Below, in pieces: positions 40,793-48,914 of a stretch of 48,914 nt of DNA (position 1 is its first letter; every line of letters starts with the position of its first letter). Under the pieces are notes generated by a model. The model was not told where the DNA came from. It saw only the letters and a program-made list of their open reading frames with translations, and searched no databases. Location: contig JJNX02000008.1 in assembly GCA_000681355.2 (NCBI GenBank), positions 1-48,914 on the forward strand. Direction: 5' to 3'. Made by a program: the position numbers and the translations under genes. The DNA comes from Peptococcaceae bacterium SCADC1_2_3 (lineage in GTDB: Bacteria > Bacillota > Desulfotomaculia > Desulfotomaculales > Nap2-2B).

Positions 40793-41615
40793 TTACTTAT
40801 TTAAAACCTTGCTTAGCTTTTCCAAATCAACCTCCATATCCTGGAAAGGCTTACGGCGCATCCGGTGCATTAGCGCTAGATTAACAATCTGGTAAACATC
40901 CTCTTTTTGAACTTCTTCGCGACCGGTTAGGGCGGCCATTGTTTTTGCTGCTTTCATCATTACCAGATCGGCGCGGTGACCGTCCACTCCCATTTCCACC
41001 GCGATTTTGGCAATTGTATACAATATTTCTTCTGATACCCCTACTTTTGGCAGTAAAGCCTGGGCTTTTACAATTTGCCGGGTGAGTAAAGGAAACCCCT
41101 TCCCGCTCTACAGTGTTGACACCCATAGCCGCTGAATCCAAAAGCACGTCTACAATATGATCGTCCAGGAGGTTAACTTCATCTACGTAAAGAATACCTC
41201 TGTTGGCCTGGGCCAAAACTCCCGGTTCAAAATGCTTTTCTCCTTTTTTGATGGCCTGTTCAATATCCAGCGTGCCTACCACCCGGTCTTCGGTAGCTGA
41301 TACGGGCAACTCTACCACCCGCATTTCCCTTTTGGAACGCGGTAAAACTTCACCCTTACTCAAGCGTTCCCGACAGGAAGCACATACTGTGGCCACGTCA
41401 TCCGGGTCACAACCAAAAGCACAATCTGTCACCACCCCGATTTCCGGCAGCAGCGCGGCCAGGGCGCGCACCGCAGTAGACTTGGCCGTGCCTTTTTCTC
41501 CCCGGATAAGGATGCCGGAAAGCTTAGGGTTAATAGCGTTAAGCAGCAACCCTCTTTTCATTTCCTCCTGTCCCACTATAGCGGCAAAGGAGTAAATTCT
41601 GTTTTGGTTGGTCAT
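40793..41615 (-). pseudogene. Broken ChlI-type AAA+ chelatase ATPase (internal deletion and frameshift)
   Basis: The N-terminal part (41615 to about 41085) has GEKGTAKST Walker A, a four-Cys insert (C-x3-C-x9-C-x2-C), and [20 protein letters not shown] Walker B. After [10 protein letters not shown] the frame goes wrong; the C-terminal part resumes in another frame at [14 protein letters not shown] and ends at 40793. Aligned with the paralogue at 41637-43679, about 70 residues are missing, including the sensor-1 GTMNPEEG and the arginine-finger region. The product cannot be an active AAA+ ATPase. The junction is in a CCCGGCA context that may have served as microhomology. Confidence 0.85.
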
Positions 41616-41636: not shown

Positions 41637-43679
41637 TTATTCTAACTGTTTTATCGCCTGGACCAGAGTGTCGGCTTTTAAATCTTCAATCTTGTAATAG
41701 TCGGCACCAAGTGTCAAGGCTAACTCCCGGGCCAGGCCAAAAGTAAGAAAGGTACCTTTTTCTACATCAATCACGAGTGCTTTGATTCTTTCATCGTTGC
41801 GGATGATTTCAGCCGCCCGGCGAGCCTCAACCAAAGGTTTTTCTTCTCCCAGGCTGACGTTGCCCTTGCCATCTGAAACTAAAATTAAAAGCGGCGAGGT
41901 GTGGGGGTCTTTATATAAGTGCGCTTTGGCCACTTCAAATGCTTTAATCAACCCCGCGGAAAGAGGCGTCTTACCGCCTGTCGGCAATTCTTCCAGCAGC
42001 TTATGGGCCATCTCCACGCTGCTGGTAGGAGGAAGGAGTACCTCTGCTTTATCACCCCTAAAAACTACCATCCCAATCCGGTCCCGCTTCTGGTAGGCAT
42101 CCAGGAGAAGGGAAAGAATGGCGCCCTTTGTCTCTACCATCCGCTGCTGGGCTCCCATGGAACCGCTGGCATCAACCACAAAAAGCAAAAAGTTGCCGAT
42201 GCGCTTCTCGCGCACTTTTTCCCGGATATCGGTAGGTTCAATGGCAATGGCTACATCCTGCCTTTTTCGGCGTAACTGGTAGGGAGCTGCTGCCCGCATA
42301 GTGGCATCAAAAGCCAGGTCGTTGTTTTTGCGCTGCATGGTGCTGCGCACGTAACGCCCGGCTTTAGAGGCAGTCCTGGTGCGGGAGCGCCTCCCGGAGC
42401 CCTTTCGTAAGATCCGGTCCCGATCAAGGGTGATGCGCTTAACAGGAAAAGGACGGCCAACGGAAAAAACAATTTCCTGTACTGCAGCAGGCAGATCAGG
42501 TTCTTGCGTCTCGTTTTGTTCTTGCTCATTCTGCTCTTCCCATTCCTGCTCTTCTTCTCCGGGCGGAGGTGGTGGCTGCTGCCTGTTGTCTTCCTCTGAG
42601 GAAGTATTTTCCTCCTGAGAAGGGTCTTCTTCCGCTTCTTTTTCAGTGGATTCTTCTTGCTCTTCTGGCTCTTCCTGTTCTGGCTCAGGCTGCTCCTGAG
42701 GCGGCGGGGGCGCCTCCCGCATCCGGTGAAACAAAACCAGTTCGGCAGCTTCATAAACATCGCTTTCCGTTGCTTCGGCGCGGCCTTCCCAGGCAGCTAT
42801 AGTACGGGCTGCAGCAGCCATAATGATGTCAGCCCGGTGACCGGCTACAAAAGCCTTTAAGCTCAGTCTGGCAATCAGGTCGAGCAACTGCGGCGGGATG
42901 GCTACGGCGGGCAGTAACTGGCGGGCGGCAACGATTCTTTCCCGCAACTTTTGTTCCTCTACTGACCACTGCTCAAGAAAGTCCAGAGGGTCGGCATCAA
43001 AAGCCTCCCTGCGCCGGGCAATTTCCATCCGTTCTTCTATATCCTTCACGCCCTCCACCTGGACACAAAGGCCGAAGCGATCAATCAACTGGGGGCGCAG
43101 GTCTCCCTCTTCCGGGTTCATGGTGCCTACCAGGATGAATTCTGCCGGGTGCTGGTAAGAGATGCCCTCCCGTTCCACCACGTTCACTCCCATGGCTGCT
43201 GCGTCTAAAAGCACGTCCACAATATGGTCGTCCAGAAGATTTACTTCGTCAATATAAATAATCCCCCGGTTGGCCCGGGCCAGTAATCCCGGCTCAAAAC
43301 GGGGCTGCCCATGTAAAATGGCATATTCAAAATCAAGGCTGCCCACCACTCTGTCCTCGGTAGCCGATACCGGCAGGTCCACCACCTGCACCTGCCGGCG
43401 GGTTCTCTCCAGCTTCCACCCGTCCGCCAGGCGGGAACGGCAAAGCCGGCAAAGCCTGCTGTAATCATCCGGATTGCAGTTAAACGGGCAGCCCACTACC
43501 ACCTCTATTTCCGGCAAAAGTGCTGCCAGCGCCCGTACCGCCGTAGACTTGGCCGTCCCTTTTTCGCCGCGTACCAGTACGCCGCCGAGCCGCGGGTTGA
43601 CCGCGTTTAGCAAGAGTCCCTTCTTCATCTTTTCCTGGCCAATAAGAGCCGTAAAGGGATACACCACTCGTTTATACAT
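41637..43679 (-). CDS. Fused ChlI/ChlD-type AAA+ and VWA chelatase protein
   Basis: 680 residues. The N-terminal AAA+ domain (about 1-330) has GEKGTAKST, a four-Cys insert (CPFNCNPDD...CRLC), [20 protein letters not shown] and GTMNPEEGDLRPQLIDRFG. An acidic, Pro/Glu-rich linker (about 335-400) leads to a C-terminal VWA domain with the MIDAS motif DASGSMG and the family segments GGKTPLSAG and LVSDGKGN. The family supplies ATP energy to CobN/ChlH-type metal chelatases. AAGGAGG lies six bases before the ATG at 43679; a GTG at 43682 is also possible. No complete large subunit is in the window. Confidence 0.92.
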   Translation of the reverse strand: MYKRVVYPFTALIGQEKMKKGLLLNAVNPRLGGVLVRGEKGTAKSTAVRALAALLPEIEVVVGCPFNCNPDDYSRLCRLCRSRLADGWKLERTRRQVQVVDLPVSATEDRVVGSLDFEYAILHGQPRFEPGLLARANRGIIYIDEVNLLDDHIVDVLLDAAAMGVNVVEREGISYQHPAEFILVGTMNPEEGDLRPQLIDRFGLCVQVEGVKDIEERMEIARRREAFDADPLDFLEQWSVEEQKLRERIVAARQLLPAVAIPPQLLDLIARLSLKAFVAGHRADIIMAAAARTIAAWEGRAEATESDVYEAAELVLFHRMREAPPPPQEQPEPEQEEPEEQEESTEKEAEEDPSQEENTSSEEDNRQQPPPPPGEEEQEWEEQNEQEQNETQEPDLPAAVQEIVFSVGRPFPVKRITLDRDRILRKGSGRRSRTRTASKAGRYVRSTMQRKNNDLAFDATMRAAAPYQLRRKRQDVAIAIEPTDIREKVREKRIGNFLLFVVDASGSMGAQQRMVETKGAILSLLLDAYQKRDRIGMVVFRGDKAEVLLPPTSSVEMAHKLLEELPTGGKTPLSAGLIKAFEVAKAHLYKDPHTSPLLILVSDGKGNVSLGEEKPLVEARRAAEIIRNDERIKALVIDVEKGTFLTFGLARELALTLGADYYKIEDLKADTLVQAIKQLE

Positions 43680-43716
43680 CACTGTCCTCCTTATAAAAGA
43701 TTCCCCCTCCCCCTAA

Positions 43717-46183: not shown

Positions 46184-47668
46184 TTACTTCAACCTTAAAA
46201 TATACAGCGCGTGCTTCCCATACTTCTTAGTGCCCACCCTGGTGGGCCAAGTAGCCGTGGCGATAATTCGGCCATCATCTGAAGCGCTAACCTTGGTGGC
46301 AGAGTTAACCGCACCATCGGTATGGTAGTAGCCCAGATAGCGATCCAGCACTGACTTTTTAACTTCACCTTTACCAGGCTGTGAAAGGTCAAAAACATAA
46401 ACCCCGGTGTAACTGTAATCGAGTGTATCAGCATTGTGAGTAGTGGAAAAAATCAGGTAGTTGTTCTTAATCAGCCTCCCGGAGGCCTGACCACCCAGCC
46501 TGAATTTCCACTGGAGGTTGCCACCCAAATCAAAGACCATAATTGAGTTGGCGTCAGGATGCTCTACAGGCGGCTTGGCATAGTAACTCGTGGCTCCTTT
46601 GACATAGGTCTTGCCTGGAGCAAGTACAACCGTGTTACCGCTGCCCAGTACACCAGCAAAAACGCTGGTGCAGACAGTAATACCCTTATGCACAATGGGC
46701 TTAAAAGCTGTAAAATCCCTTATTTTTTCGCCGTTGGAGTTGAGCACATATACCTTGCCAAAATTGGTCACAGCCACTACTTTGTCGCCCGCCACATCAA
46801 CCGCAACGTTTACTTTTTCGCTGTAATTCATAGAAGGGTCATTTTTAACCTCGAACTTCCATAGTTTTTCCCCCGTGTTGAGATTAAAGGCGTGAGCATA
46901 AGCCTGTCCGGTGATTTTTTCTCCATAAGAATACGTGCCCGTGACCAGCTTTCCTCCGATTAATCCTATCCTGCTCATGCACGTGATGCCGGGATAACCG
47001 TAGGAGTTGACCTTCCATAGAAGCTTGCCCTGGTGACTTAAGGCTAAAAGCACCTCCACTCTATCAGCCCGCTCTTTCTTTTTCCATGAGTTGTAGCCAA
47101 CCAAAATCAGCTTATCGCCGTGAATAACAATTTCTAAATAGCCCCACCAGCTTGGAGGAGCATCGGCAGGCATGTATTTGCTAACCAGGGGCTTCAAGTC
47201 TTTTTGCACGTCATACTTCCAGAGTTCCTTGCCTGTCTTTATATCCAGGCAAGTGATATAACTGTGCTCCTTCTTTTTACCGTAGCTGTACTTTTCCGTT
47301 AAGAATACCCTGTCGTTAACCATCTCATGGTTGTCTACTCCGCCATAGGTCATCTTCTGCCACACTTGTTTCCCCGAGCCAACACTATAAAGCACCATCT
47401 TGTCTGCTTCCACTACCAGGACATACTTCCCGTCCGGAGAAACAACCTGCTCTGTAAAAGGAATGCCCGACCCCCAACTTTTGCCGGTCACATCCGGTAT
47501 CTTATCGGCGGAAACGTTACCCAGGGGTATCTCATGCAGCAACTCCAACTGCGGTTTTAAACTTGTCCCCAGTGCTCTTGCCGTTGCTGCCAGGGCTGGG
47601 GAAACAGTTGTAAAGAAAAATGTCACTGCCGTTAAAAGGCATAAAAGCTTCTTGTGCCTGAATAGCAT
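46184..47668 (-). CDS. Secreted PQQ-like beta-propeller protein
   Basis: 494 residues. A signal peptide (HKKLLCLLTAVTFFFTTVSPALA, cleavage near residue 27) shows export. The rest is made of repeats of the quinoprotein-type propeller: WKYDVQ, LWKVNS, LWKFEV and LQWKFRLGG blocks, each beginning a blade, with GKELWKY- and GEKLWKF-like turns. Catalytic residues of true quinoprotein dehydrogenases are not obvious, so a scaffold, sensor or surface protein (BamB/WD40-like) is more likely. No cell-wall anchor is seen. It precedes the gate-domain gene, with a 255-base gap, so co-regulation is uncertain. Confidence 0.8.
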   Translation of the reverse strand: MLFRHKKLLCLLTAVTFFFTTVSPALAATARALGTSLKPQLELLHEIPLGNVSADKIPDVTGKSWGSGIPFTEQVVSPDGKYVLVVEADKMVLYSVGSGKQVWQKMTYGGVDNHEMVNDRVFLTEKYSYGKKKEHSYITCLDIKTGKELWKYDVQKDLKPLVSKYMPADAPPSWWGYLEIVIHGDKLILVGYNSWKKKERADRVEVLLALSHQGKLLWKVNSYGYPGITCMSRIGLIGGKLVTGTYSYGEKITGQAYAHAFNLNTGEKLWKFEVKNDPSMNYSEKVNVAVDVAGDKVVAVTNFGKVYVLNSNGEKIRDFTAFKPIVHKGITVCTSVFAGVLGSGNTVVLAPGKTYVKGATSYYAKPPVEHPDANSIMVFDLGGNLQWKFRLGGQASGRLIKNNYLIFSTTHNADTLDYSYTGVYVFDLSQPGKGEVKKSVLDRYLGYYHTDGAVNSATKVSASDDGRIIATATWPTRVGTKKYGKHALYILRLK

Positions 47669-47872
47669 TATAAAATACCTCCTCCTAAAGCCCAGTTGTT
47701 TTTTAAACCAGATTTTTCTACCTTTTTTACACCATTTTATTAACAGTATTAATAAACATTAAAAGCATCTCTTTCGCCACATCATTCTTAATCCTGCCGC
47801 AGCTAAACTTTCCTGAACCACCCCTTTCATTGCTCAGTTTCTCTTTGGCAGGAAGCGACAGCAACATTTGCC

Positions 47873-47901
47873 TTGCCTTTCTCCCCAAAATGTCTTATAA
47901 T
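47873..47901 (+). promoter_or_regulatory. Predicted SigA promoter of the toxin-antitoxin pair
   Basis: TTGCCT (47873-47878), 17-base spacer, TATAAT (47896-47901), 45 bases before the antitoxin ATG. The remainder of the 47669-47945 gap shows no further feature that I can support; it must also hold the promoter of the divergent propeller gene. Confidence 0.55.
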
Positions 47902-47945
47902 TTAAATAAAGGCAACTGTAAACTATAAAAGGGGAGAATCTTACC

Positions 47946-48170
47946 ATGGGTTCATCAGTTAAACGCATATTAGCTGATTTTGTTTCCTTGTCTGCAGAAG
48001 AACAAGAGGCCCTTCTCATTGAGTTAATCTGCAGTGAGGGTCTTTCATTTGTCCCTTTTGCCCCCCCCAGTGCATCTGAATCTGAAATCGAACACTTAAT
48101 AAAATTAATGCAACAAGGTCTGCCTTTTCAAGAAGGCCCTTTAAAGAGAGACACCGTGTATGAAAGATAA
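47946..48170 (+). CDS. Putative antitoxin of a PIN-domain toxin-antitoxin pair
   Basis: 74 residues, no recognisable DNA-binding fold. The N-terminal half is helical (SVKRILADFVSLSAEEQEAL) and resembles small antitoxins of the DUF2281/VapB-like kind. The Pro-rich middle and charged C-terminus (LIKLMQQGLPFQEGP) could wrap the toxin. It overlaps the PIN-domain gene by 11 bases, so translation is probably coupled. GGGGAGA precedes the ATG and a promoter is seen at 47873-47901. Assignment rests on position and size. Confidence 0.65.
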   Translation: MGSSVKRILADFVSLSAEEQEALLIELICSEGLSFVPFAPPSASESEIEHLIKLMQQGLPFQEGPLKRDTVYER

Positions 48171-48582
48171 AGTATTCTTTGATACCAACATTCTGTTTTA
48201 TGCCTTTTCCACCCAAGAAATGCTAAAACAGCAGCTTTCTTTAAATCTTCTTTCTCAAGTCATGAAGAAAGGCACTGGGTGGATAAGCGTTCAGGTTTTA
48301 AATGAACTCTATGTGAACTTCTTGAAAAAAGCTCCCCTCCTTCCTGCCGCAGAGGCCCAACAACTGATTTACAGGATCAGCCTTTCCTTAAACGTAATCT
48401 CAATGACAACCACGGTAATCTACGAGGCATTCCAAATTCAAAACCGGTACCAAATCGCTTTTTGGGACTCCTTGATTGTAGCAAGCGCCCTTCTCGCCAG
48501 GTGTACGACCCTGTTTACAGAGGACATCCAGCATAATCAATTGTTTGATACGGTTAAAGTGGTCAACCCTTTTGTCCAATAG
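48160..48582 (+). CDS. PIN-domain toxin (VapC-like RNase)
   Basis: 140 residues of the PIN fold. The N-terminal FFDTNILFYAFS holds the first acidic residue (Asp8). NELYVNF supplies the conserved Glu, and FWDSLIVASALLA with TLFTEDIQH the third and fourth. Such toxins cleave tRNA or rRNA and are neutralised by the upstream antitoxin. Length and motif spacing are normal. The pair sits between the propeller gene and a truncated CobN, which suggests a late insertion there. Confidence 0.87.
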   Translation: MKDKVFFDTNILFYAFSTQEMLKQQLSLNLLSQVMKKGTGWISVQVLNELYVNFLKKAPLLPAAEAQQLIYRISLSLNVISMTTTVIYEAFQIQNRYQIAFWDSLIVASALLARCTTLFTEDIQHNQLFDTVKVVNPFVQ

Positions 48583-48646
48583 GGTTTTGCGGTGAGAAAT
48601 CCGCCTGGAAATCTGTCCGCTCCTCCAGTTCGCCTTCTACATTCTC

Positions 48647-48914
48647 GACAGTGATGATAACTATTCTTACCATGGCGGCATGATTGCCGCGGTAAAGGCT
48701 TTTAAAGGAGTTTTGCCCCGTTCTTACAGCGGGGACAGTTCCGATCTTGAGCGGGTGAAAATGCGTTCCACTGCCGAGGAGGCCAAGCACGTCTTCCGCA
48801 GCCGCATTTTAAATCCCAAGTGGATTGAGAGCATGAAGCGGCATGGTTACAAGGGGGCAGGGGACCTCTCCCGCATGGTGGACATCTCCTTTGGCTGGGA
48901 CGACCTTGCCGGGA
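48647..48914 (+). pseudogene. cobN: Truncated CobN-type chelatase large subunit (C-terminal part, continues past window)
   Basis: The forward frame gives the highly conserved CobN region DSDDNYSYHGGMIAAVKAF, GDSSDLERVKMRSTAEEAK, VFRSRILNPKWIESMKRHG and YKGAGDLSRMVDISFGWDD. These match the C-terminal third of the CobN/ChlH-type large chelatase subunit, which binds the tetrapyrrole and inserts the metal. The frame is closed by TGA at 48593 and upstream sequence does not read as CobN. No start codon is found. The 5' two-thirds (about 800 or more residues) is therefore missing here. Its orientation opposes the ChlI/ChlD genes. The 3' end lies beyond the window. Confidence 0.82.

Follow-up and report, generated by a model that had tools for sequence, protein, structure and literature searches.

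A strand switch within cobN beside a PIN-type toxin-antitoxin pair at a contig end, probably a chimeric join

Among the described systems that lie closest to the sequence examined here, one is of gene organization and one of sequence artefact. With VapBC-type modules, the pair of genes described below shares a small upstream open reading frame that overlaps the PIN gene, here by 11 bases, and D/E/D/D acids in the toxin. In the account of chimeras of multiple displacement amplification (MDA; PMC1855051), over 85 % of chimeras are given as inverted with an intervening deletion, over 70 % of the junctions as having 2–21 complementary nucleotides, and, in its Table 1, inverted joins under 10 kb apart account for 337 of 475.

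The window, which is the whole stretch of DNA that was analysed, is contig C8 of the Peptococcaceae bacterium SCADC1_2_3 draft genome from end to end (48,914 bp). This draft is 2.59 Mb in 259 contigs, with 89.8 % completeness and 3.8 % contamination. A preliminary description had reported a toxin-antitoxin pair set against a truncated CobN frame at the right end of the contig, and had considered an inversion or insertion at this border likely. Comparison of both strands with relatives indicates that the CobN similarity changes strand inside cobN itself, and this strand flip is probably the chimeric end of a contig, technical in origin and not the DNA of the organism.

Pieces of cobN on opposite strands

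On the plus strand, the CobN-like frame matches positions 945–1032 of the 1090 in PF02514 (E 8.6e-33) and also matches the cobaltochelatase CobN model TIGR02257 (E 1.1e-28), although its 99.6 bits are under the full-length cut-off of 822. It is therefore homologous to CobN without reaching the full length of PF02514, about 1,090 positions in one frame. The frame is closed upstream by an in-frame TGA at 48593–48595, as originally reported. The similarity to CobN starts at 48635–48641, which is 53–59 bases past the PIN stop and not 64 as first given. Likewise, the part absent upstream is larger than the two-thirds that had been estimated, at about 86 % of CobN (residues 1–1,094 of the 1,267-residue protein in the relative G023). 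Since the window spans C8 completely, this CobN piece lacks some of its 3′ part as well, and its frame exits an assembled piece instead of having been cut at an arbitrary point. Based on DNA and protein matches, 48639–48914 (+) is an internal segment of cobN, flipped in strand, that starts from residue 1095 of the G023 CobN. In blastn, 262 bp of it align with G023:C132:3142-2881 at 89 % DNA identity, and as protein it is 92 % identical to G023 CobN residues 1096–1185.

The spacer that was supposed to separate the PIN gene from CobN contains the other piece. Its minus strand reads VEGELEERTDFQADFS and then continues to a stop at 48563–48565, such that 48563–48642 (−) holds the C-terminal tail and stop of cobN, likely in the true orientation. 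This C-terminus was missed in the preliminary description. Identification of the tail rests on the DNA match to one relative, G023, with 86 % identity over 87 bp to G023:C132:2591-2677 (E about 1e-22); as protein, it corresponds to G023 CobN residues 1249–1266 and is 89 % identical, a weak match (E 0.027). The minus-strand cobN end converges on the PIN gene and the two gene ends overlap by 20 bp. The junction at which the CobN homology switches strand is at 48639–48642, where the two blastn matches overlap and the bases ACAT fit either side.

A search of the organism's own assembly with full-length CobN (E up to 10) returned two pieces only, 48635–48907 (+) and 48593–48646 (−). Neither this query nor the PF02514 profile found the missing part of CobN anywhere else in the assembly, including the far side of the locus, where its presence would, according to the preliminary description, have shown that the break was caused here. 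Because the assembly is 89.8 % complete, its absence here does not equate to absence from the organism.

In G023, both pieces from the window fall within one full-length cobN, on one strand and in one open frame. The join points correspond to C132:2677 and 3142, which are 465 bp apart, and 203 bp between the two pieces in G023 have no counterpart in the window. In G004, from the same family, cobN, chlD, and chlI are in a row on one strand of C110, with the 5′ part of cobN split over two frames. The minus-strand reading of the window agrees in orientation with both relatives. The suggested comparison with an intact locus thus shows cobN as one open frame in G023 and as codirectional with chlD and chlI in G004. 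Likewise, CobN residues 1100–1240 are unbroken on a single strand in 60 of 65 comparison loci (L005–L069, some of which share a record) and in the other five an unbroken CobN alignment ends at residue 1235; no inversion like that of the window is present in any of the 65.

The neighbouring toxin-antitoxin pair

The PIN-toxin pair itself was correctly recognized. It consists of an antitoxin-like open reading frame of 74 aa at 47946–48170 (+) and, overlapping it by 11 bases, a predicted PIN-domain (VapC-like) toxin of 140 aa at 48160–48582 (+), which matches Pfam PIN PF01850 above the cut-off (E 9.5e-11). Four acids, D8, E49, D103, and D122, are at the catalytic positions of the PIN protein. Homologues of this protein are present at 25 places outside its own genome, in 60 genomes; the acids were compared in 11 of these loci and all four are kept in 11 out of 11. 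Amongst solved structures (E up to 0.01), the PIN protein matches PcrIIC1 only (8wmm chain G, E 2.2e-9).

Searches of Pfam (best E 0.27), NCBIfam, PADLOC, and PHROGs placed the 74 aa frame in no family, and of the 113 genomes of the order it is matched in one, its own. Of the 11 loci with a PIN homologue, nine have an upstream frame of another type, starting near E-(Y/H/K)-Q-N-(I/V)-T and presumably ribbon-helix-helix; one further locus has a different upstream frame and one has no frame in the size range. The end of the 74 aa frame, KRDTVYER, resembles the ends of different frames upstream of PIN homologues, for example SRGDIHER. From this likeness, it is possible that a common toxin-binding tail is carried on a differing N-terminal part. 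In comparison with VapBC-type modules, the pair therefore differs in that its antitoxin-like frame is without a family match and that the upstream frame of most of the homologues is not the same.

The pair was also described as having its own promoter. There is a promoter-like site, TTGCCT-17 nt-TATAAT (10/12), at 47873–47901 (+) upstream of the 74 aa frame; however, two such sites were found in 47600–48914 against a mean of 1.6 in shuffled sequences, and the site is therefore within chance expectation. A defence or phage role for the pair was considered and rejected, as PADLOC gave no match and PHROGs gave only weak ones, to entries of unknown function and for the PIN protein only. On plasmids, PIN homologues were found in 43 of 72,556 records, every one below 60 % identity. 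As sequence, the toxin-antitoxin pair looks real and is ordinary in kind.

The C-terminal end of cobN converges on the PIN gene and is complete as far as its own stop codon. Judged from this arrangement of the sequence, cobN was not cut by the pair, nor was its break caused by it. In G023 C132 (L070 2510-2621), there is a short match to the 3′ end of the window PIN gene, flanked by a radical SAM gene on one side and by the cobN stop on the other; this stretch is probably what is left of a PIN gene that G023 has lost.

Explanations for the strand switch

The reading that we favour, and believe to be probable, is of a chimeric contig end. The cobN gene, for the CobN/ChlH-type chelatase large subunit, would lie on the minus strand, like chlD and chlI, coming into the contig at its right end, and would stop at 48563, tail-to-tail with the PIN-type pair and with a 20 bp overlap with the end of the toxin gene. 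The contig would track the true cobN for about 80 bases only. At the 4 nt microhomology in 48639–48642 it would then jump approximately 465 bp within cobN and onto its other strand, and it would end 272 bases beyond the jump. Such a fold-back could have formed while the DNA was amplified, while the library was prepared, or during assembly, and would have lost sequence where the two parts were joined; the toxin-antitoxin pair would be an ordinary neighbour with no role in the break.

The window has what a fold-back would leave, being two pieces of one gene in an inverted join with sequence missing between them. A query of the 1,045 bases up to the right end of C8 matched only itself genome-wide, therefore this end is a dead end, and the position of the junction, 272 bases from it, fits a technical cause. 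The pieces on opposite strands, the arrangement in two relatives, and the contig end are direct observations, from which we infer the technical origin of the flip. Most likely, the terminal 276 bases of C8 are chimeric and the CobN remnant as first described is no real feature of the locus.

The strongest alternative, possible yet the less probable of the two, is that a real and recent inversion of about 0.46 kb, or a complex rearrangement, has occurred in cobN, accompanied by a deletion in chlI, the chelatase locus being newly in decay. If so, the first steps in the loss of a CobN-ChlI-ChlD chelatase have been caught. In its favour, chlI (40796–41615, −) has an internal deletion of approximately 206 bp at about 41074–41081 when compared with G004, which causes a frameshift; residues 186–244 of the G004 ChlI are unmatched and the join carries a short direct repeat. 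Being in the same cluster, this deletion fits with real decay of the chelatase genes. The adjacent chlD-like gene (41637–43682, −), with AAA and VWA domains, is in one open frame and in the same direction as the minus-strand cobN tail. Like it, the other listed genes of the window, among them some that look like dnaK, dnaJ, and lepA from a reading of their translations, are long frames without interruption when considered by themselves. CobN is also patchy in the family, with a match in three of 11 genomes including this one.

The ends of other contigs likewise lend support to a real inversion. Open frames were sought at 61 contig ends, of which 39 had frames shorter than 82 aa, outside the family search, and two whose frames reach 82 aa or more were left out, C5_L because it shares sequence with C8_L and C14_L because it starts like C7_L. 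Of the 20 ends sent to family searches, 13 matched, and none of these 13 has a terminal frame that is clearly cut on its inner side; in C33_L, the terminal frame is an IS1 transposase whose match starts at position 20 of the 131 in the profile. Fold-back as a general fault of this assembly is therefore not supported by the 13 testable ends. In addition, the 5 kb ends of contigs C1–C21, 42 in all, are free of inverted repeats of 25 bp or longer (90 % identity) that have an arm in the outermost 400 bp. Degradation of the contig end was also considered and rejected. The match to G023 ends at 48900; those to G004, G050, G058, and G018 continue to 48911–48913, so that the last 14 bases align normally with the CobN of four relatives and the right end of C8 is not degraded, which makes the chimeric reading slightly less probable than it would otherwise be.

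Set against a real inversion are the closeness of the junction to the dead-end contig end and the absence of any such arrangement from the 65 comparison loci. There is also no inverted repeat across the two breakpoints in the relative, with four weak pairs elsewhere, and site-specific inversion was rejected on this basis. A chimeric contig end is still preferred. The inversion or insertion that had been proposed at the border of the pair survives in part: an inversion of strand exists, but at 48639–48642, inside cobN and not at the edge of the pair. Similarly, the opposition of CobN to the ChlI/D genes is confined to the final 276 bases of C8, the minus-strand tail being codirectional with chlD and chlI.

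It is highly improbable that the contig joins two genes, the plus-strand piece belonging to another copy of cobN in opposite orientation. Several copies do occur in relatives, G004 having matches on five contigs and G023 two genes on C132; however, both pieces match the same G023 gene (86 % and 89 %), the other G023 copy is only approximately 42 % identical to the matched one over the C-terminus, and no further cobN was found in the organism's own assembly. Least probable of all, and very unlikely, is that the pair inserted in or beside cobN and severed its 5′ part, since, although the pair is adjacent and is followed by the plus-strand CobN piece, the 3′ end of cobN runs convergently to its own stop, no CobN piece was found on the far side of the pair or anywhere else in the assembly, and the cobN of G023 is full-length where the likely PIN remnant adjoins its end.

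Two observations were made on contig structure elsewhere in the assembly. At the left end of C8 there is a transposase gene at 2–829 (−; DDE_Tnp_1/DUF772), and the first 1,014 bases of C8 are 91 % identical to the beginning of contig C5; based on these, the left break of C8 is probably an insertion-sequence repeat. Contig C21 (G000; L131, L132; 29,689 bp) has a perfect inverted repeat of 6,621 bp, with one arm at each end, which may be an assembly oddity yet may be real. Between the arms are direct repeat units with identical ORFs for an ABC transporter and for a protein that is presumably AgrB-like.

Comparison with known systems

The strand flip explains an apparent gene break at a contig end that had seemed to be driven by a toxin-antitoxin pair, and a false lead is thereby removed. 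The flip becomes visible only if a relative is compared with both strands of the window. For similar findings a simple check is available, as the opposite strand of a supposed spacer may hold the end that the broken gene lacks.

When compared with the CobN/ChlH-type chelatase genes in G004 (C110) and G023 (C132), the window has chlD and chlI close to cobN, as in G004, but differs from both relatives in that only 3′ pieces of cobN are present, on two strands and at the end of a contig. With the inverted MDA chimeras (PMC1855051) it has in common an inverted join of segments under 10 kb apart, missing sequence between them, and a short microhomology, here of 4 nt. If the source DNA was amplified, the join in C8 could be of the same kind.
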